Shown one piece after another: positions 770 through 30,801 of a stretch of 30,851 nucleotides of DNA. The translations under genes and the position numbers were made by a program. Within the stretch, counting starts at the first letter, position 1; the number at the start of each line of letters is the position of its first letter. The notes under the pieces were generated by a model. It saw only the letters and a list, made by a program, of their open reading frames with translations. It was not told the origin of the DNA and did no database searches. The DNA is from a virus. The stretch spans positions 1 to 30,851 of IMG/VR virus record IMGVR_UViG_3300032224_000911. The stretch is one strand, 5' to 3'.

Positions 770-2365
770 ATGGCAAAATCATTAGATGGTGTATTAACCA
801 AAAAAGCTCACAGCAAAGAAAAGTTCACGGAAGAACAAGTTGAACATTTGTTAAAATGTTCTGACCCTGTCAACGGGTATCAATACTTTGCCGAACATTT
901 TTTCTATATTCAGCATCCTGTCAAAGGCAAGATGCTGTTCCAACCATTTGAGTATCAAGAACGATTACTACAAAGTTATCACGATTTTCGATTTAACATT
1001 AACATGCTACCACGTCAAAGTGGCAAGACCACATGTGCATCAGCTTACCTGCTTTGGTTTGCCATGTTTCATCCAGATCAAACTATCTTAGTTGCCGCAC
1101 ACAAATACACAGGCTCACAGGAAATTATGCAACGTATCCGCTATGGATACGAACTATGCCCGGACTATATCAGATCAGGGGTTGTAAGTTATAATAAAGG
1201 GAGTATAGATTTTGATAACGGATCACGAATTGTATCAGCTACTACTACTGGTAACACCGGTCGTGGTATGTCCATATCCTTACTATATTGCGATGAGTTT
1301 GCTTTCGTACAACCTAACATCGCTGAGGAATTTTGGACTTCGATATCGCCAACACTAGCAACTGGTGGTCGAGCGATTATTACTTCAACACCCAATAGTG
1401 ACGAAGATACGTTTGCTATTATATGGAAGGAAAGTCAAAATCAATTTGACGAATACGGTGATGTTAGGACAGACGGGCTAGGTACTAATGGTTTCCATGG
1501 TTTCCGTGCAGAATGGCACGAACATCCAGATCGTGACGAAGAATGGAAGAAAGTTGAGATGGGACGTATTGGTATAGAACGTTTTCGACGTGAGTATGGT
1601 TGCGAATTCTTAGTCTATGACGAAACATTAATCAATAGTATTAAACTTTCAGAGATGATTGGCAAAGAGCCAATAACCCGTATGGGACAAGTTCGGTGGT
1701 ACAAGAAACCCTCACCAGAACACCTCTACATTGCGGCTCTAGATCCTAGTTTAGGCACAGGCGGCGACTATGGTGCTATACAGGTATTTGAAATGCCCAG
1801 TATGATTCAGGTTGCAGAATGGCAACATAATGTTACACCTATACAGCAACAGGTTAAGATATTCCGCGATATGTTAAAATATATACAGGACGAAATTGGA
1901 GCTGAAAACTACAATAATATCTACTGGTCGGTGGAAAATAATACTGTAGGTGAAGCGGCACTGGTAGTTATAGCTGATCTAGGAGAAGAAACATTTCCTG
2001 GAATGTTTGTATCAGAGCCCTTGAGAAAAGGGCATATACGTAAATTCCGTAAAGGATTTAATACCACATTTGGAACTAAAATTTCTGCTTGTAGTCGACT
2101 AAAATTCCTTATAGAAGAGGAAAAAATGAAGATTTATAGCCGTGCATTGATCAGCGAACTTAAGACTTTTATTGCCGCAGGCACAACTTATAAAGCTAAA
2201 GTAGGACAACATGATGATCTAGTTTCTAGTCTATTACTAGTTATACGCATGAGTGTACTGTTAGCAGAATGGGATCCTAGAGTATTCGAAGTCCTTAAAG
2301 TAACCGGCGAGATTGACGAAAGTTGGGAACCACCGCTACCCATATACATATCCACAGGTGTGTGA
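770..2365 (+). CDS. terL: Terminase large subunit (gp17-like ATPase/nuclease)
   Basis: This is the DNA-packaging motor: it cuts concatemeric phage DNA and drives it into the prohead with ATP. The N-terminal ATPase has Walker A PRQSGKTT (residues 81-88), Walker B LLYCDEFAF (171-179, with D175/E176) and a coupling motif TSTPNS (205-210). The C-terminal RNase H-like nuclease has the expected acidic residues in ALDPS (D325), SVENN (E389) and QHDD (D482/D483), corresponding to the T4 gp17 catalytic triad D401/E458/D542. At 531 aa it is slightly shorter than T4 gp17 (610 aa). The ATG at 770 follows a terminator and a late-like box. The downstream gene begins 11 bases after its stop. Confidence 0.97.
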   Translation: MAKSLDGVLTKKAHSKEKFTEEQVEHLLKCSDPVNGYQYFAEHFFYIQHPVKGKMLFQPFEYQERLLQSYHDFRFNINMLPRQSGKTTCASAYLLWFAMFHPDQTILVAAHKYTGSQEIMQRIRYGYELCPDYIRSGVVSYNKGSIDFDNGSRIVSATTTGNTGRGMSISLLYCDEFAFVQPNIAEEFWTSISPTLATGGRAIITSTPNSDEDTFAIIWKESQNQFDEYGDVRTDGLGTNGFHGFRAEWHEHPDRDEEWKKVEMGRIGIERFRREYGCEFLVYDETLINSIKLSEMIGKEPITRMGQVRWYKKPSPEHLYIAALDPSLGTGGDYGAIQVFEMPSMIQVAEWQHNVTPIQQQVKIFRDMLKYIQDEIGAENYNNIYWSVENNTVGEAALVVIADLGEETFPGMFVSEPLRKGHIRKFRKGFNTTFGTKISACSRLKFLIEEEKMKIYSRALISELKTFIAAGTTYKAKVGQHDDLVSSLLLVIRMSVLLAEWDPRVFEVLKVTGEIDESWEPPLPIYISTGV

Positions 2366-2375: not shown

Positions 2376-5300
2376 ATGAAACCGAATTTAAATAAAATTG
2401 CTAAGGAACTCTACGGAAAGATACAAACCCGCTTTACCGACATCGAAATCGGTGATGAAAATGCCGAGGTTTTAAGCAAAAAGGAAGATATTCCTTTAGC
2501 CCGATTTTTTGAGTTTGAATACAAAGAAAAAGGCGTTACTATCGGAACTATTGCTATAACATTAGACGAGGAAGACGGGGTTGTAGTCCAAGTAAGTGGA
2601 AATTTAGCTGAAAAGAAACACCCAGGCGCTTATAGATTTATACGTAGTTTTAGACAATTTGCTAAAAATAGATTATTAAACTTTGATGTTCAAAATATCG
2701 GAAAAAATAATCTAGATAAACGAGATTATACATTTCAAGCCAAATCTAAGGATGAATCAATGATGGAACCAATTATGGAACATAGGCTGTACGGAACAGC
2801 AAGAATGAGTTACCAAGATCTAGGAGAAGCTACTCTAATTATTAAACATAGCCAACCTGTTAATTTAAATCTTGCTGCCGGCCGCTCAATGCATATTGAA
2901 GGCATTTGGGTTGAAAATGCACAAGGTGAGCGTTTTAAATATCCGTCTAAACATATAAACGGTGCTCGCGCACTGGCAGAACATATTAAACATGGTGGCC
3001 ATCCTTATGATAGTATCGGCCAACATATCATCAGTCTTTCAGAAGAATTAGCACAACTACGTAAATTCAAAGGTTATGTTAGTCGCAATGAAGCACTATC
3101 AGAAGCAATGGGCGATATCACCAGCAAAGTCTTAGAGCGCATTGAAGAAGTTAAAAAAGAAGTTAATAATTTACAACGTACATCTTACTATGAAGCATTC
3201 GCAGAATCGTTTACAGATCGTGAAGAGCAGATGATTCCTGAAGAAATTATGAGTGACTGGATTGATCGTTTGACAATTCGCACATTTAACGAGGAATTAA
3301 AAACAGCATTTCCTTACATATTTAAACTAGTAAGTGAAACAGATATTCCAGTTAAAGAACTAAGTCCTGATGATTTACTAGACGAAGAACGCACAGAAAC
3401 TAAAGACGAAAAAGGTAATGTGGTCAGTTGGAGAGAAGAAGGCGAATGGAAAAAAGCCGCTCCTAAAGATGGGCGTGGCAAAGTCACCAATCTAAGTGAC
3501 AAGGCTCGTAGGGCAACAGAAAAATTAACTAAAAAAGAAAAAGAACTTGCTGAAGCCGAAGATGCAGTTAGCACTGGACAAATTGTACCTAGAATATCTC
3601 CACCGCCTGGCCCAACGTCACCGGCACAACCTAAAGCAGGTCAAAAAGATTTAGGTAATGGCTTTGCCTTATCAACTGTTAACATAGGGTCTGAAGAATT
3701 GCCGGCAGTACTTGATACACAAAGTAATCCACAAACATATATTTTACCTAATAAACGTACAGATGGTAGCGCGATTATTAGAAGTATGGATCCGTACATC
3801 CTTGTTATAGACGGAAAGCCAGAGGTTGCTGACAAAGTTGGTCCGGACACAATGAAGGCATTACAACAAATGCAAGCATTACAAAAACAGCCGCAAGCAT
3901 CAACTTCGTTTATTAAAGATTATCAAACTGGTGAGTACTTGACAAAAGGACCCGACGGTAAATTGTACAACAAAGCAGGCGAAGAACGTGATAATTTACA
4001 TGGCGGCCCAGTGAACAATGGTGCGGCGATGTTTAGAGGTATAACACCTAAAGCTAAAACAATGGAAGATCAATTTGAAAGCTTCATGGACAGTATTGTT
4101 AATGAAGATGAAGATCATAGAGGGCGCGGCATTTTAGATCATAATGAAAGTACTGTACTTGATGCTGTTAAAGAATTAAACGATATTTTTAAAACTGAAT
4201 TAAAAGGTGGCGTAGCAGGAATTAATATTATCGATTCATTAAAGGATCTAATACCAGACCCTGAATTTTTAGCCAAAATGAAAGATGTAGACCCAGACTT
4301 AGATGCTAGATCAGTTATCGAATTAGAATTAAAAGACATGGCACATAGTAATGAAAATTTAGCTCGTGCAGTATCGTTAATTGACTTTGGCGGATCAAGC
4401 GATGAAGAAATTGGTGGCCAAGACACTGGAACTACACCTCCGCCTGAAGCTAGTGCTCCTCCAGCACCTGAAGCTAGTGCTCCTCCAGCGCCTGAAGCTA
4501 GTGCTCCTCCAGCGCCTGAAGCTAGTGCTCCTCCAGCACCGGCGCCAGTAGCTGAAAATATGTCAGGTCTAAAAGCAAAACTAATCAAAGCACTAGAAGC
4601 CGGTGCAACACTAGAAACAAAATTAGATTTTGGATTTAAAGTAATGACCTTAGGCGAAGCATGCGATGCATGCGGTATGTCTATGGAGAAACCAGAAAAA
4701 TCAGGCGATCCAATGCATGATATACTGAAATCAATTGCAGGATTCTGGAATCCAAAAGAAAAGAATTTTACTATCGGCGGCACTCGTGCTAAGATAAAAG
4801 TTCTAAAAGGGTTCAAAGACGGCGAATATCCCAATGCACACCCAGAACATGTAAAGAAGGTAATCGATATCATTGAAAAAATGGATCCTACCAAAGATAC
4901 AGAGTTGAGCAGAATTAAGCAGTTATCCGGAACTATGCAAGTTGAAGATGTGCAAGATGACTTTGATACTATGATGAAAGATTTTACTGAAAAACATGGT
5001 AATATAGATGTTGATAGCATGTTAGCTAAGTTTAAACAAGATAATCCAAATGCTACTGTAACACAAAGCAATACACAAAATTATTCAGTAAATGGTAAAC
5101 CTTCTGACAAAGCAGGTTTTGATGCGGCACAGAAAAATACTAACATGCCTAAGTTTGATTTAAATGATCCACAAGGTATGCAGAATCATTTCAAGAATTT
5201 CGCCAGCCAAATCATGCCACAAGTAGGTCAAAAGATACAATCAGCTACTGCTGATCAAAAACCGCAGAACATTAATATGCCAGGATTTAACGGAAGTTTT

Positions 5301-5408
5301 AATCCAGCAGACTTTGGAAGTCATATTAACAATATGATGAAAGGTATGAATTTTAATGAAGCCAACGAACTAGCAAAAATGCTTAAAATTGCAGGAATAG
5401 GAAAATAA
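2376..5408 (+). CDS. Large unknown phage protein with PEASAPPA repeats
   Basis: A 1010-aa protein I do not recognise by name. I place the start at the ATG at 2376 because the frame upstream is opened only by a TTG inside terL. The N-terminal third looks globular. Residues around 230-330 are helical and charged. A central linker is rich in Pro, Lys and Glu and ends in four PEASAPPA copies (DNA 4443-4538). The following domain contains a C-x2-C pair (CDACGM), and the C-terminus is rich in Asn, Gln and Met. The layout of globular modules joined by disordered linkers, and the position just after terL, suggest a virion or internal head protein; this is inference. It ends 1 base before the next ATG. 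Confidence 0.85.
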   Translation: MKPNLNKIAKELYGKIQTRFTDIEIGDENAEVLSKKEDIPLARFFEFEYKEKGVTIGTIAITLDEEDGVVVQVSGNLAEKKHPGAYRFIRSFRQFAKNRLLNFDVQNIGKNNLDKRDYTFQAKSKDESMMEPIMEHRLYGTARMSYQDLGEATLIIKHSQPVNLNLAAGRSMHIEGIWVENAQGERFKYPSKHINGARALAEHIKHGGHPYDSIGQHIISLSEELAQLRKFKGYVSRNEALSEAMGDITSKVLERIEEVKKEVNNLQRTSYYEAFAESFTDREEQMIPEEIMSDWIDRLTIRTFNEELKTAFPYIFKLVSETDIPVKELSPDDLLDEERTETKDEKGNVVSWREEGEWKKAAPKDGRGKVTNLSDKARRATEKLTKKEKELAEAEDAVSTGQIVPRISPPPGPTSPAQPKAGQKDLGNGFALSTVNIGSEELPAVLDTQSNPQTYILPNKRTDGSAIIRSMDPYILVIDGKPEVADKVGPDTMKALQQMQALQKQPQASTSFIKDYQTGEYLTKGPDGKLYNKAGEERDNLHGGPVNNGAAMFRGITPKAKTMEDQFESFMDSIVNEDEDHRGRGILDHNESTVLDAVKELNDIFKTELKGGVAGINIIDSLKDLIPDPEFLAKMKDVDPDLDARSVIELELKDMAHSNENLARAVSLIDFGGSSDEEIGGQDTGTTPPPEASAPPAPEASAPPAPEASAPPAPEASAPPAPAPVAENMSGLKAKLIKALEAGATLETKLDFGFKVMTLGEACDACGMSMEKPEKSGDPMHDILKSIAGFWNPKEKNFTIGGTRAKIKVLKGFKDGEYPNAHPEHVKKVIDIIEKMDPTKDTELSRIKQLSGTMQVEDVQDDFDTMMKDFTEKHGNIDVDSMLAKFKQDNPNATVTQSNTQNYSVNGKPSDKAGFDAAQKNTNMPKFDLNDPQGMQNHFKNFASQIMPQVGQKIQSATADQKPQNINMPGFNGSFNPADFGSHINNMMKGMNFNEANELAKMLKIAGIGK
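4443..4538 (+). repeat. Four 24-bp tandem repeats (PEASAPPA)
   Basis: Four nearly identical in-frame 24-bp units (4443-4466, 4467-4490, 4491-4514, 4515-4538) encode PEASAPPA. The copies differ mainly at the last base (A or G). They form a flexible Pro/Ala linker in the 1010-aa protein and are a natural site for copy-number change. Confidence 0.95.
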
Positions 5409-5409
5409 T

Positions 5410-6102
5410 ATGAAAAAAATCATCACTGAAAGCGAATTAATCAATCGTGCCCGTGGCCTTAGAGAATACTTAAATGTATTAGAAGCTAAGTTTGATCCAA
5501 ATGTTAAAGCATTACAGGATAAACTAATTCAAGCCGGTGCAACTATCAAAGCGGACGGATTTATGGGTCCAGCAACACAAGCGGCTATGAAGCAATTCCC
5601 TACAGTAACTACACAAACTGATGCTGAGAAAAACACTGCGGCAAATATCAATAGTGCAGATACTACCCCGACTACAACAACATATGACGACGGCAGTACT
5701 ATGTCAACTGGTGCAAACGGAGTAGTATCCAGTACAGATACTAGCGGTGCGAATTATAAGCAAGGATCAAATCCTGCTTTGACACAACCTGCTCAGGCAG
5801 CGGCTCCGGCAGCACCAGCGGCTCCGGCAGCACCAGCGGCATGGGCACCAACACCAGAACAGGCTAAATGGTTGGGTAGTGCTAATCCGCAAGATCCACT
5901 TATCCTTAATAGAATGCCAGGTGTTAAACCACCAGTGACATATTTTAAAGATCCAGCAGATCAAGCTAGAGCAAAACAATTAGGTTTTCCAGCGTCGGCG
6001 GCACCTGCGACAGCACCTGCGAATCCTGTTCCAGTCCAGGAAGCTAGTAGATACAGTGATGAATCAATTTTAGCTAGAATTGTAGAATTAGCAAAGAGAT
6101 AA
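5410..6102 (+). CDS. Peptidoglycan-binding-domain protein with disordered linker
   Basis: This 230-aa protein has a PG_binding_1-like segment at residues about 31-63 (VKALQDKLIQAGA, then the DGFMGPATQAAMKQF signature), a fold that binds cell-wall peptidoglycan in endolysins and tail proteins. The rest is Thr/Ser- and Ala/Pro-rich low complexity, including repeats of AAPAAP, with a short helical C-terminus (ILARIVELAKR). Residues 17-26 (LREYLNVLEA) match a motif also seen near the N-termini of the next protein and of the minus-strand gene at 28421, discussed as a possible capsid-targeting peptide. No catalytic domain is visible, so it is a binder rather than a hydrolase. The start ATG lies 1 base after the upstream stop. 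Confidence 0.8.
   Translation: MKKIITESELINRARGLREYLNVLEAKFDPNVKALQDKLIQAGATIKADGFMGPATQAAMKQFPTVTTQTDAEKNTAANINSADTTPTTTTYDDGSTMSTGANGVVSSTDTSGANYKQGSNPALTQPAQAAAPAAPAAPAAPAAWAPTPEQAKWLGSANPQDPLILNRMPGVKPPVTYFKDPADQARAKQLGFPASAAPATAPANPVPVQEASRYSDESILARIVELAKR
5800..5835 (+). repeat. Two exact 18-bp tandem repeats (Ala/Pro linker)
   Basis: An 18-bp unit (5800-5817) is repeated exactly at 5818-5835 and encodes alternating Ala/Pro residues in the disordered part of the 230-aa protein. A third partial unit follows. Confidence 0.9.
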
Positions 6103-6104
6103 TT

Positions 6105-7160
6105 ATGAAATCGTTACGCGATTATATTAATTTAATTGAAGGTACTGCTGCCGGCATCGTACCGGACGGATCAATATTAAAGGCTAACCAACTAGTATGG
6201 TCGCCCGATTCTGACAACGGCAAACGGTTTAGTGGCAAAGACTTAGAAAAACTAGGTGACGGACGTTGGTGTGCTGACGGCTACTGCATATTCCACAAAG
6301 ATTATAGAGCCATCCTAGATAAAATTTGGTTTGATAAAAACAGCAGTCCAACCACACCGGCCAAGGCTAAAACATCCGCATTTGAACCTGGAATAGATGC
6401 TAAAAATACAGGCAGCTGGGATAGCAAACAAATAGATTATAAAGGCACTGTTCAAGCTCAAGCTATTCAACATGCCAATAATATTGCAAATGTCAACTCA
6501 ATTGTGGTTGGCAAAACATTGGATATACCCGGAGTTGGTACTTATAAAATTGCACCCGGAGATACATTAGATGCCATTGCCGCCGGCCGGTATAAGAAAC
6601 CTGACAATCTTCAAAAATCAGATAGTGGAATATGGAATAAAGGTCCCGATGAAAGTGATGCAGAAAAACAGCGTAATATACGCAAAAACTTCAACGCAAG
6701 AGATCAGTCAACTCGAGATCAGGAAGAAAGACTACATCAAATCCGTCGTGACGACAATTGGCAAAATGGACCAAATCAACACGAGCCAGAATCAAAGCGG
6801 TTGGGTATAAATGAAGCAACAGATACTCGAGAATTTATGCGTAATTATATTAGGTTAGTCGAAGGTGCCGAAACTCCAGTAGATCCAAATAAATTAATGG
6901 CATCTATGCTAATGGGTGGCGAATATAAAGAATTTGATCTAACATCAACTATGGAAAAAAATAACTGGGTCGGTTCTCCGAAGCAGGTTATTAACCAAGC
7001 TGATAAATGGTTGTCGGATTTTTTAAGACAACGCGGCGTTATGTACTCTAATCTAAAAATTACATATAAAGGTGCAACAATGAACTCTAGCAAAATCGGA
7101 GATGCTGATGCACCTGACCCAGATTGGGTTAACGATATTAAAAACTCTTTTAAGAAATAA
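6105..7160 (+). CDS. LysM-like protein with duplicated IEG/VEG motif
   Basis: A 351-aa protein whose middle (residues about 120-162) reads as the end of one LysM repeat and the start of another (VVGKTLDIP, then TYKIAPGDTLDAIA), suggesting peptidoglycan binding. The N-terminus MKSLRDYINLIEG closely resembles the T4 internal-protein capsid-targeting peptide MKTYQEFIAEA and ends in LIE-G, a match to the gp21 prohead-protease consensus. A second copy (TREFMRNYIRLVEGAE) occurs at residues 241-256, splitting the protein into two modules. It begins 2 bases after the upstream stop, so the two genes form one unit. No enzymatic motif is seen. A packaged, possibly injected, protein is an inference. Confidence 0.8.
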   Translation: MKSLRDYINLIEGTAAGIVPDGSILKANQLVWSPDSDNGKRFSGKDLEKLGDGRWCADGYCIFHKDYRAILDKIWFDKNSSPTTPAKAKTSAFEPGIDAKNTGSWDSKQIDYKGTVQAQAIQHANNIANVNSIVVGKTLDIPGVGTYKIAPGDTLDAIAAGRYKKPDNLQKSDSGIWNKGPDESDAEKQRNIRKNFNARDQSTRDQEERLHQIRRDDNWQNGPNQHEPESKRLGINEATDTREFMRNYIRLVEGAETPVDPNKLMASMLMGGEYKEFDLTSTMEKNNWVGSPKQVINQADKWLSDFLRQRGVMYSNLKITYKGATMNSSKIGDADAPDPDWVNDIKNSFKK

Positions 7161-27600: not shown

Positions 27601-27762
27601 ACACTGAGTTTAGACGCACTGAAAGAACTTACAAGTACAAGTATCGGTGGACGTGGAACGTTCCCTAATGGACCTGATGTATTGGCCATTAACGTGTTTA
27701 AAACTGCGGGAACTAGTACAACTTGTAACGTTATTATACGTTGGGGTGAAGCGCAGGCTTAA
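21673..27762 (+). CDS. Giant virion structural / fibre protein (2029 aa)
   Basis: The N-terminal ~200 residues contain a KCRRDISYVLEAYISDLRHGG block that I recall from large structural proteins of cyanophages and other marine T4-like phages. The middle is a chain of beta-rich, Ser/Thr/Gly-rich modules. Residues about 960-1250 form a conserved region with RGWHGATIRSGTFDDQNGMF and MQWTWYGAGFIDFMLRG. From residue 1441 to about 1803 there are four repeats of 88-96 aa beginning YNNA or YGSA, with a degenerate fifth after that. This fits a long fibre or baseplate-associated protein. A likely Shine-Dalgarno AAGGAA (21659-21664) precedes the ATG. Its stop overlaps that of the minus-strand gene in the palindrome TTAA. 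Confidence 0.87.
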   Translation: MSKKQILNYKFNPGFVVPDTNLYPNVVNLLQVNKKFIIEEAIAYISYNVANNIAPYAYYTYNTEKCRRDISYVLEAYISDLRHGGNIQTNFVASKYFENGIPQVDGNRLPEVYAHTFIRDLINNYVLSNVTYSSRQSIKAQTIDQEYVPEGGGITKITTLANSVIAVITNGLSSLPASSNNRGYVKFPGFYKLKDILLITNTTRNTILYNFADTAAAADLSYSEQYDSDFPGALYGNEKITTIYFDADTSNMMVTDQIQIFVEGKEQTVRLNSIGTDAMERAKVGIPQSMLDADFEYGLQPTKWQTISMMRNYPAVYEIPGSDQAVISVITDASTGTSSTGASSITVTTLSAHGFSLGDVFTIKALASSIQGFSRAEGTFLIATVPSSVTFTYYAKSKVGTSNGQLLSSAYTQLRKGGFYTGASVGSPNFNVYSNGQSGSITTNLTTPINSQFIGFTGIAPPVGAPLTGTGITTGTQITAVYGTGGTVAATTLTSAAAIGDTTLIVTSTSSIYPGLLIDRGDGQSLQVTDITNNTVSLSGPLTSAILGTNATYPNLTQSATSGSGSGATFTISRLGNSYSVTVGNSAGTGYANNNTVTILGTSLDGTSSNNATVTITAASDINTVDTLDPATLVQGDSYVAGTSVATTGGTGTGLTVDITVNSSNGSIQTVVVNQAGKNYTVGDTIYISGGSGNATIKVLTITAGGLVQTATVSGLTVTAPTKSFVSSISVSDPTTSQIASGNTGISYTSIATIEVTFGSAHGFIPGDSLTISISSTGSNAQLAAGAYYVERVPSSTTLRYTARAPGTIANTLTGSVYARPDSYYVHRPLDGGVQLGTGGPAHGATAIRMSKKYIRYQSGKGVMYNTGALFAPSYDIQTISATSTSVGATITLLTDDTDHGCQVGAQIQVSGVTTSGYNGIYTVSKINNERSLSFIATQTLGSTSGVLGSPCVMSIRGWHGATIRSGTFDDQNGMFYQYDGIRMAVVKRSSTFQIAGTIAIAANSNLITGTNSRFTQQLAIGDRIVIRGMSHVVSSITNDTSMTVTPDYRGVSDIAVAKATKTIDLIVPQESWNIDALNGSGPSGYNLDVTKMQMIGMQWTWYGAGFIDFMLRGPQGDYVFAHRFRNSNVNTEAYMRTGNQPVRYEVINEGAKSTLSASITNISNTLPLTNAFYFPNSGTVVIENEMIRYTGNDGSNLTGCTRATTLTQFVAGSNRSWQADSTASGHAAGCGVILVSNTITPIISHWGSAFMIDGQFDSDRGYIFNYASTGVTASIDTATSFLIRLAPSVSNAQTGDLGERELLNRAQLLLASISITSDSVAGGGAIVVQGILNPQNYPTDPTKITWTGLSSSAAGGQPSFAQIASGGSVTWSGNFSTATATVQGAFTTGLVARSFAPVTNSLSAISFSAVTQTASAASFGFLSQAIVAQSTTAAPYGAGYNNATSTTRPSKDILITNTAYDALTLVPRVGDAVTGTGIAASTTIVSVTRAYLGGNLTQIVLNNFPVVTSTAGANVSGINIATLYSVTYNNAISNARNDFLVSDSAYDAITASTPITVGDTVSAATYITGGQTVTSVTRTYINIAGVPYTRIVMSAVANASSPAASSNGANNVTITFTSSVAATYNNALSTSRTDFLITQSAFASSTTKVSDVLSVATYITGSQTISSITQSYTTIGGVVYCRIIMSGVANSTSTANSGNNVTVTATSAATATYGSALSTARTDFLVTDTDWATSGVQVGDALSINTFLTGSQTIISVTTSYININSISYTRVVMTSVANSTSTSGGSNDQVVTVTATGSSASYVRTNYLFVTASTWLASGATVGTKVATSYTSFPAGTAIAAVGSRQYGTNSITVTGATGTGSVVTLTFASQTTAPFSVGCPITVSNIVSATTNYNGTYTVVSCSQTQLTYSHTANGSYTSGGNITGTTVYRLTFTQAANTTIAAAATPTFQFGAAYAIPGEQVFSFVSNPGSTDTLSLDALKELTSTSIGGRGTFPNGPDVLAINVFKTAGTSTTCNVIIRWGEAQA
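25993..27081 (+). repeat. Four 88-96-aa repeats at the end of the giant protein
   Basis: Units start at 25993, 26257, 26545 and 26812, with lengths 264, 288, 267 and 270 bp. Shared marks are YNNA/YGSA, RxDFLxxxxA, VGDxxS, ITGxQT, S-[VI]-T-x-[ST]-Y and R-[IV]-[VI]-M. A degenerate fifth copy begins at 27082. DNA identity is lower than protein similarity, so the duplications are not recent. Confidence 0.82.
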
Positions 27763-28421
27763 GCGCCGAGATTACCGCCGGCTACAGCATCTAGGGCTGG
27801 ATTGCCGGTGGTTGAATTTACCTTTGCCTTCCTATACCAGCTACTGTTCATGATTGCTTCGATAATTGAGTCAGCGATGTCGTGATACATAGCACCAACA
27901 TACTCACCAGTCTTTGCAGGATTTTCGGCCATGTCGAACTCAAAGTTAGCAGGTACTTTAACTGTTTCTCCATCTTTCATTACTAGGTTACCATCGGCAT
28001 CAATCTTAGCTTGACCATACATTTCTCCGTATAGATCACGATTGATTTGATACAAGAATGTAACTATCATCACATAAGGATTTTTAATTATGAAAAACTG
28101 AGCAATAGTTAAAAATAAATCTGTTACACTGCCCACTTGGCTGTGCAGTTTGCTGTTAGGATCGCGCATTTCATCCCATACTTCCTTGACATTCATGATT
28201 AACATGTAGGCAATGACAATCTTAAACACAATGTCAATCTTAGTCTGGCTTAGATACCAATTACGCATGAGTCGAACTAACACGCGAGGAATATCTTCTT
28301 TTTTGATCCTAATAAAGCGTTCAAACTTTTTCTGTGCGGTTGCAGGTCTAGTGGCGGTCTTGCCAGCAGGGACAGCTAGAGCATCAGCTTCAATTAGTCT
28401 AGTGATTTCACGGATTTTCAT
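27759..28421 (-). CDS. Membrane-segment protein with capsid-targeting-like N-terminus
   Basis: A 220-aa protein of unknown function. Hydrophobic segments at about 62-78 (IDIVFKIVIAYMLIMNV) and about 99-125 (VTDLFLTIAQFFIIK, then YVMIVTFLYQ) look membrane-associated. The N-terminus MKIREITRLIEADA resembles the motif in the 5410 and 6105 genes and ends in LIE-A, a possible prohead-protease site. A late-like box 6 bases before its ATG suggests late expression. It converges on the giant structural gene with a 4-base stop overlap. A packaged protein that later inserts into the host membrane, or a lysis factor, are both possible; neither is shown. Confidence 0.8.
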   Translation of the reverse strand: MKIREITRLIEADALAVPAGKTATRPATAQKKFERFIRIKKEDIPRVLVRLMRNWYLSQTKIDIVFKIVIAYMLIMNVKEVWDEMRDPNSKLHSQVGSVTDLFLTIAQFFIIKNPYVMIVTFLYQINRDLYGEMYGQAKIDADGNLVMKDGETVKVPANFEFDMAENPAKTGEYVGAMYHDIADSIIEAIMNSSWYRKAKVNSTTGNPALDAVAGGNLGA

Positions 28422-28458: not shown

Positions 28459-28719
28459 ATGCCACGGTCATTCTACTTGCCCGAATTACATGCGTTTGAA
28501 CATGTAGCACAAGCTCCTTGGCCTGTTATTCTAACCGAATACGATCAACTAGATTGGGTCAGTAGTGTAGAATGCATGGAAGTATGGCTTAATAGATACT
28601 GCGGCAGTCACTACTCAGAATGGGCTTGGCATAACGGAACCAGCATAGACTACTGGCAAGCCTGCATAGCATTCCGTAGAGAGCGTAACAAAACCCTATT
28701 TTTATTAACCTGGTCTTAG
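28459..28719 (+). CDS. Small unknown protein rich in Trp/Tyr
   Basis: I choose the ATG at 28459, giving 86 aa, because the longer reading frame runs through the opposing gene and the late-like box precedes this ATG. The protein is rich in aromatic residues (WAWHNGTSIDYWQACIAFRRE) and has no membrane segment or motif I can name. Its stop overlaps that of the minus-strand oxygenase-like gene by 4 bases. Confidence 0.65.
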   Translation: MPRSFYLPELHAFEHVAQAPWPVILTEYDQLDWVSSVECMEVWLNRYCGSHYSEWAWHNGTSIDYWQACIAFRRERNKTLFLLTWS

Positions 28720-29273
28720 ACGTAGGTAAAGACTACCAAGCGTCTACGATAAAACCCAGGACCGTAACGCCATGCATGCTGTCGCCCTGTAAAGCTAACA
28801 CATTGGTCCTGTACACAGTCTATTTCATGTGTTATCTGCCACTGGTCATCCCATAAGACTGTGGGCGTATTGGGCACAGTATCCAAATACCATATCCAGT
28901 TGCCGTGCTCAAAGCTGTGATCAATATGTGGCAAACTAAACTCAGCAGGTGCTGAAAAACTCATGTTAAGTGTAGCCCTATAGATTCGATGCCACCTGAC
29001 CCCGTTAGCCGATGCCCAGCGAGCAAATATTCTTTTGAAAAATTGAAACTGATCATTATCTACCACTAGACCTTCATGTTCAGGACTAGCTGAACGCATC
29101 ATCAAATGATGAAACATATAGGGTATATCCACTGCATTGATCTGGGGAGGATGTGTGGCCTTACCTACAGTATGATCATTATGATACCAGGGCATAAACG
29201 CACTAGTAACCACAGTGTTGATATGAGCACGTTCTTGATCAGTTAGGACTACAGGAGCTTGTATAACTGTCAT
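28716..29273 (-). CDS. Third 2OG-Fe(II) oxygenase-like protein
   Basis: A 185-aa protein whose C-terminal half has the double-stranded beta-helix pattern. PHIDHSFEHG supplies H116-x-D118, and FTGRQHAWRYGPGFYRRR supplies H166 and an Arg (176-178) in the position expected to bind 2-oxoglutarate. The N-terminal half is poorly conserved with other families known to me. The sequence differs clearly from the oxygenases at 13322 and 18412. It is translationally coupled to the upstream small gene (ATGA overlap at 29270-29273). Confidence 0.68.
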   Translation of the reverse strand: MTVIQAPVVLTDQERAHINTVVTSAFMPWYHNDHTVGKATHPPQINAVDIPYMFHHLMMRSASPEHEGLVVDNDQFQFFKRIFARWASANGVRWHRIYRATLNMSFSAPAEFSLPHIDHSFEHGNWIWYLDTVPNTPTVLWDDQWQITHEIDCVQDQCVSFTGRQHAWRYGPGFYRRRLVVFTYV

Positions 29274-30133: not shown

Positions 30134-30307
30134 GACGGGTCTATACTCTATGCACCAAGCGCATATGGCTAGTATAACAACTAGGACAATCCAAGCATAC
30201 TTGCTGACTGTAGATTCATTAGATCTCGAATAGTAGCAGTCCATATCTGGATCATAGTGATAGATCTTACCACGACGCACTACTGTTTCGTTATATAAGT
30301 CGTTCAT
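30125..30307 (-). CDS. Single-helix small membrane protein
   Basis: A 60-aa protein with one strong transmembrane helix near the C-terminus (YAWIVLVVILAICAWC, residues about 38-52) and a polar N-terminal half containing RRGKIYHYDPDMDCYY. It could be a small holin-like, spanin-like or accessory membrane protein; nothing fixes this. Its ATG overlaps the stop of the upstream gene (TAATG). The GKIYHYDP segment recurs at the C-terminus of the partial gene at the right edge of the window. Confidence 0.68.
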   Translation of the reverse strand: MNDLYNETVVRRGKIYHYDPDMDCYYSRSNESTVSKYAWIVLVVILAICAWCIEYRPVLV

Positions 30308-30801
30308 TAGGTCTTATCAATATCCCGATCAAAGTACTTTTCACTTGGCAATCTGGCTCGCCCGCCATGTTGATTAGGATCTATAATAGCTGGTTCAACA
30401 TCTAACGGGCGTATTCCCCACTGCTTGCGTCCCCATTTGACTATACGCATGTACAGGTATGGTCCTGCGCTGTCTGGTTCGTCTAGAGTGGGATCTGCTT
30501 GTACTTGCGGTTGTTCTTTATAGTCTGTTACCCAACTGGCAACTTCTACAGCGGGTATGTGATAGGTAGTGCTGATCAAGCGTATGATCCAAGGCCAATC
30601 GTTAGACTGGAAACGTTCTTCTGGCAAACTGTCCCACCACTTGTTAAAGCCCTCTTCGTCGGCAAACTTACTGGGTTCTGGCCATTTGGGCTGTGCGGGC
30701 CATGTGGGTCTATACTGCTGATGGCGCTCAACATGATCTTGATTTGGACCGGGAGCTTGTCGATCTGGACCGTTTTCTTTGATTATTTCATGTATACGCA
30801 T
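30307..30801 (-). CDS. Unknown protein with Pro-rich N-terminus
   Basis: A 164-aa protein of unknown function. The first 50 residues are Pro/Gln-rich and probably disordered (PTWPAQPKWPEPSKF). The rest has a helical Trp-rich part (FNKWWDSLPEERF, WPWIIRLISTTYH) and a polar C-terminus. The N-terminus MRIHEIIKENG is a weak member of the MK-x-x-E-x-I pattern noted for other genes here. A late-like box lies just upstream on the minus strand. It is coupled to the following membrane gene through TAATG. Confidence 0.75.
   Translation of the reverse strand: MRIHEIIKENGPDRQAPGPNQDHVERHQQYRPTWPAQPKWPEPSKFADEEGFNKWWDSLPEERFQSNDWPWIIRLISTTYHIPAVEVASWVTDYKEQPQVQADPTLDEPDSAGPYLYMRIVKWGRKQWGIRPLDVEPAIIDPNQHGGRARLPSEKYFDRDIDKT

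Follow-up and report, generated by a model that had tools for sequence, protein, structure and literature searches.

What is the role of short peptides that recur on otherwise dissimilar proteins in a tailed phage genome? The question is raised by a 30.9-kb virus record (30,851 nucleotides), the whole of which is here called the window. It carries genes for a gp17-like terminase, SSB, recombinase and helicase, and represents part of the genome of a T4-like jumbo phage, kin of the Pseudomonas phages PA5oct and Cassandra. Its large terminase subunit is 54% identical to the terminase of the Pseudomonas jumbo phages PA5oct, Cassandra and Paride, and the genes for terminase, large protein, SSB and recombinase follow one another broadly as in Cassandra. 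The nearest kin are uncultivated IMG/VR contigs with terminase identities of about 67-98%. Elsewhere in the window, the product of 28716-29273 (minus strand) matches phrog_274, labeled DNA endonuclease V (E 7e-19); judged by eye it is 2-oxoglutarate/Fe(II) oxygenase-like, and genes 13322 and 18412 may be too. The main features are listed below; genes are named by their first nucleotide and a slash marks a candidate cut.

770-2365, plus strand: large terminase subunit, a marker of context and relatedness.
2376-5408, plus strand: large protein of 1010 aa, phrog_13484 (virion structural protein), ending FNE/ANELAKMLKIAGIGK; C-terminal tag at about 5361-5405.
5410-6102, plus strand: cassette protein of 230 aa with a long leader, a peptidoglycan (PG)-binding domain (PF01471), a low-complexity stretch and a C-terminal tag.
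5410-5487, plus strand: N-terminal leader of the 5410 protein, MKKIITESELINRARGLREYLNVLEA, residues 1-26, with candidate cuts VLE25/A and ITE7/S.
6046-6099, plus strand: C-terminal tag of the 5410 protein, RYSDESILARIVELAKR, with candidate site VQE211/A directly upstream.
6105-7160, plus strand: fusion protein of 351 aa, composed of leader, LysM module, second leader and C-terminal module.
27759-28421, minus strand: protein of 220 aa with leader MKIREITRLIE/ADA, without relatives in IMG/VR.
30307-30801, minus strand: protein of 164 aa with weak candidate leader MRIHEIIKE/NG.

Internal proteins of T4 start with MKTYQEFIAEA, which targets them to the prohead, and gp21 cuts behind L/I-x-E. The initial annotation of the window had pointed out peptides of this kind, and all those it quoted are found in the sequence. 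The 6105 protein begins MKSLRDYINLIEG and has an internal copy, TREFMRNYIRLVEG (TREFMRNYIRLVEGAE at residues 241-256, nt 6825-6872), and the 28421 protein begins MKIREITRLIEADA. In the 5410 protein the core LREYLNVLEA occupies residues 17-26 of MKKIITESELINRARGLREYLNVLEA, preceded by MKKIITESELINRARG, and is therefore not at the extreme N-terminus. MRIHEIIKENG (30801) is indeed the weaker example it had been taken for. The sites at the peptide ends of 6105 (LIE/G and LVE/G) and 28421 (LIE/A) obey the L/I-x-E rule, as had been claimed; VLE/A of 5410 has V at P3 and so lies outside the strict form. Sites INE237/A (6105) and VQE211/A (5410), and a C-terminal tag, can be added to that description. 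The motif suggested in the annotation, once loosened, matched 2 window proteins against 0.04 expected (P 6e-4), and a loose leader pattern matched 4 of 31 against 0.78 expected from shuffling (P 0.008), both patterns having been composed post hoc, after the sequences had been seen. The proposed likeness to T4 capsid-targeting peptides is partly supported, by portable leaders with prohead-protease-like sites at their ends; nothing in the window matches MKTYQEFIAEA residue by residue.

A variable cassette sits between the large protein (2376-5408) and the SSB gene (7303), in which relatives retain the leaders and exchange the bodies. The 5410 protein has relatives in L002 (96%) and L008 (57%), and its type of leader is retained on different bodies in L001, L003, L008, L097 and L031. 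Other bodies again stand behind SIRDYIKIVTE, SLREYINIIKEA, SIRDYINLVTE, SFREYIQLVES and GLRHYIDIVNEA in G004, G008, L104, L100 and L102, respectively. Comparison of 19 distinct cassette proteins gave 126 pairs without detectable body similarity, in which the first 32 residues (z = 44.6 vs. shuffles) and the last 18 (z = 34.3) are alike; related genomes were counted more than once, and the z values are therefore descriptive and no strict probability. A short N-terminal peptide is in this way common to unrelated bodies within one phage group, and leader-like and C-tag-like ends are also borne by proteins encoded at other loci, gp22 among them. The comparison supports the view that the N-terminal peptides are portable leaders ending at prohead-protease-like sites. 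Chance as the origin of leader and C-tag was rejected group-wide.

In order to avoid pattern fitting, N-termini were also scored a priori against T4 MKTYQEFIAEA. In 12 related contigs 14 proteins score at least 24 (0.75 expected); several of these belong to one family (MKSFKEYLTES), which matches phrog_14802, "virion structural protein," and the 14 are therefore not independent events. T4 itself has 4 such proteins (0.30 expected), the window proteins all stay below 20 and no Cassandra protein reaches 24. Judged by these scores, there are clearly T4-like leaders in the phage group and those of the window are a different form. Three hold-out contigs gave a modest result for the leader pattern, with 3 matches against 0.40 expected (P 0.008), and a stricter pattern was not significant in them (1 against 0.17); Cassandra alone has no leader excess by most patterns. 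The starts of T4 gp24 (MAKINELLRES; L210:7323-8606) and gp2 (MAIFQIINES; L209:26061-26885, minus strand) resemble the short leaders found here.

C-termini have a tag too (..DESILARIVELAKR, ..ELAKMLKIAGIGK), often directly behind an E/S, E/A or E/N site; the 5410 protein ends VQE/ASRYSDESILARIVELAKR. The tag takes the forms LARIVELAKR and RRLAGL and is similar to the C-terminal end conserved among the gp22 scaffolds of this phage group, a C-terminal motif R-[LI]-A-G-[IL] being conserved in the group's gp22 and present on neighboring proteins. R-L-A-G is found at the gp22 C-terminus in G011-G015, Cassandra, Atu_ph07 and Phosso, and K-I-A-G in Vibrio 2.275.O, and sites precede the motif in Atu_ph07 (L-V-E/S), Phosso (L-T-E/S) and Vibrio 2.275.O (L-F-E/S). 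The motif is weaker in 121Q gp22, and T4 gp22 has a different C-terminal end without it. The tag family comprises 27 of 1415 C-termini vs. 17 of 29138 internal segments, by a pattern composed after examples had been seen. The share of tagged proteins with a loose site upstream of the tag is 31 of 47 (66%), moderately above the 38% of control stretches; the ES[TV]GYDEL form is very regular, as judged by eye. In the hold-out contig G021 the tag occurs on exactly two proteins, gp22 and the large protein. As for the latter, phAPEC6 gp205c (48.48 kDa), which adjoins the SSB gp204c, was detected in virions and is probably, from gene order and size, the counterpart of 121Q gp5, a member of the large-protein family; the virion list also has SSB and RecA, so carry-over is possible. 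The window's large protein also has a short PEASAPPA-type repeat.

Which protease could act at such sites? In T4 the prohead protease follows the rule L/I-x-E (PMC9026906). A gp21 homolog, which the initial annotation had wished to see identified, is absent from the 31-kb fragment, the genes for gp21, gp22 and gp23 all lying outside it, and is present in five near relatives (PF03420, E 7e-26 to 2e-28) and in Cassandra, which all encode Gp23 as well. The first contigs examined gave no PF03420 match, and Gp23 is lacking in the four of these that were tested for it; they are therefore probably other genome segments. Gp23 of the relatives has L-x-E/S or L-x-E/T near the N-terminus, directly before a conserved TAGATSAGN-like stretch, and by analogy to T4 this is likely the maturation site. 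In the cassette proteins, [LIVMF]-x-E/[AGSTN] is concentrated at the ends, with 28 occurrences in terminal zones vs. 4.2 expected.

Gene 6105 can be divided into four parts:

6105-6143, plus strand: N-terminal leader MKSLRDYINLIEG, candidate cut LIE12/G; the same peptide opens the 110-aa proteins of L002 and L003.
6144-6815, plus strand: LysM module, residues 14-237, ending at candidate site INE237/A.
6816-6863, plus strand: internal second leader, residues 238-253 (ATDTREFMRNYIRLVE), with a candidate cut on each side.
6864-7157, plus strand: C-terminal module, residues 254-351.

L001 encodes the LysM module separately (83-85% identical), behind a long leader of the 5410 type and with a C-terminal tag. 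Where the window has 6105, L002 and L003 have a gene for only 110 aa, in which MKSLRDYINLIEG is joined straight to the 6105 C-terminal module, and this module is embedded in other proteins in L004, L225, L226 and L227. Seen beside these, 6105 looks like a fusion of two proteins encoded apart in relatives. Between the leaders of 6105 and L003 there are 3 synonymous and 0 nonsynonymous codon changes. The 6105 protein has only three [LI]-x-E/[AGSTN] sites, at E12, E237 and E253, all at module borders, so that a cut in two with excision of the second leader is possible; the predicted cuts could produce residues 13-237 and 254-351 and release 238-253. L082 and L003 also have internal stretches bounded by two such candidate sites. 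The AlphaFold2 model of 6105, from a five-sequence alignment, had a mean pLDDT of 43 and a pTM of 0.25. Phmmer searches of the 6105 and 28421 proteins against PDB gave no matches, and tblastn in named phages gave none for 6105 and only a weak PG-binding match for 5410. The fusion, like the portability of the leaders, the recurrence of the tags, the positions of the sites and the presence of gp21 and Gp23 in relatives, is read directly from the compared sequences.

Some related contigs have more elaborate arrangements. In L226:2392-3354 and L227:28-3282, internal twin-arginine-like signals (MNRRGFLGRAGAAAAVAAAPGLAKAADQ.., ISRRGFLRGAGAVAAGAAVGGMAQAADQ..) precede a 6105-type C-terminal module and come directly after NEA- or NED-type sites; with such a signal before the module, a released protein might reach the periplasm after injection. 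L227:28-3282 and G006:36036-39821 (minus strand) encode long, polyprotein-like mosaic proteins of 1084 and 1261 aa, with repeated GVAEG-type boundaries (5 vs. 0.2 and 8 vs. 0.6 expected, respectively). Judged by eye, a segment of the window's large protein, LGNGFALSTVNIGSEELPAVLDTQSN..SAIIRS, resembles one in the L227 mosaic. Group-wide polyproteins marked by [GKRQ][VIL]xE[GSA] repeats were rejected, the excess coming mainly from one G023 and one G006 protein.

Short, swappable end tags stand beside likely cut sites, and the proteins are therefore probably loaded into the head, trimmed and perhaps injected. It appears likely that the shared peptides are capsid-targeting propeptides, that their carriers are loaded into the head and trimmed, and that 6105 represents two internal proteins. 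During head assembly an amphipathic N-terminal leader would draw a cassette protein into the prohead core, where a gp21-type protease would cut behind the leader's Glu (x-E/G, x-E/A or x-E/S) and so free the body within the head, as happens with the internal proteins of T4. The C-terminal tag would probably dock where the gp22 scaffold tail docks and then be cut off as well. The LysM module and the 98-residue module of 6105 would enter in one chain, from which the second leader could be excised. Packaging, cleavage, scaffold-tail docking and later injection are steps that we infer.

The domains of 5410 (PG-binding) and 6105 (LysM) would suit early-infection proteins, and in related contigs leaders are borne by, among others, a protein that combines LysM with tail lysozyme and one that is like a nucleotidyltransferase. 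The same PG-binding and LysM domains, together with the phage tail lysozyme domain of a G006 leader protein, could also belong to tail-tip lysin accessories whose leaders dock onto the tail or baseplate, and not to head contents. We regard this as unlikely: the cassette adjoins terL and a head-and-packaging family, the C-terminal tag is that of the head scaffold gp22, and the sites fit a head protease. It is rather improbable that the tagged proteins are parts of the prohead core that are cut into pieces and disappear, as happens to much of T4 gp22, gp67 and gp68, with no cargo delivered. T4 core proteins are largely removed in maturation (PMC9026906) and the tag is common to gp22, but internal [LIVMF]-x-E/[AGSTN] sites in the cassette proteins fall below the shuffled expectation (7 vs. 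13.0), as if the bodies stay intact, and these bodies have infection-type domains. Common descent alone, with paralogs whose middles have diverged or been replaced and whose ends have no targeting function, would agree with the single locus of all cassette proteins and the PG-binding segments that some bodies share, but is very improbable given the similar leaders and C-tags elsewhere in the genomes, including gp22, and the concentration of candidate cut sites beside the tags.

Head loading by capsid-targeting propeptides may be part of a wider scheme, which we put forward only tentatively: a general two-ended loading code, open to any protein that has the N-terminal leader and a copy of the scaffold C-tail, with both ends trimmed, and 6105-like genes as head polyproteins with excisable internal leaders. 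A partial literature search found no report of capsid-targeting leaders in this phage group, of a scaffold-type C-tag shared with cargo or of head polyproteins. If the proposals are true, one could predict from sequence what cargo is carried by giant phages of a large and for the most part uncultivated group, since end tags and sites would flag the unknown proteins that are packaged and probably injected. Cargo sharing the scaffold C-terminal motif would suggest a route of protein entry into the prohead. Delivering several proteins per gene, through head polyproteins that are cut at internal leaders, would be unusual for a phage. The tags would also be candidate tools for bringing proteins into phage heads.

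Capsid-targeting leaders are known from T4 (PMC9026906) and, in another form, from P1, in which an N-terminal signal sends the injected protein DarB to the capsid (PMC9024508). DarB is alike in having its capsid signal at the N-terminus; P1 is unrelated, and the likeness is one of description only. In phiKZ and SPN3US, head proteins lose N-terminal propeptides when the prohead protease cuts behind Glu (PMC10052503, PMC5694885); these propeptides differ in being mostly at least 100 residues long, and the phages are not close kin of the window phage. A close comparison is with T4 internal proteins, which share a short N-terminal peptide on unrelated bodies, a site of the L/I-x-E/A or L/I-x-E/G type (in 6105 and 28421, with VLE/A in 5410) and a gp21-family protease, found here in relatives. 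The window set differs by its leaders, which are longer than MKTYQEFIAEA or unlike it, by a second tag, at the C-terminus, and by an internal leader copy in a fusion protein. However, the leaders of T4 gp24 and Alt also differ from MKTYQEFIAEA, and a residue match is not strictly defining. By eye, MKIREITRLIEA and the related leaders MNIRELIKIVEA and MKIRELLSEA are like the gp24 propeptide (MAKINELLRES); gp24 is a shell vertex protein, unlike the cargo candidates of the window. In herpesviruses a short C-terminal tail of the scaffold binds the capsid protein and is released at a protease site directly upstream. To our knowledge that tail does not occur on cargo proteins; by analogy to the herpesvirus scaffold, cargo of the phages described here may borrow the docking tail of its scaffold.
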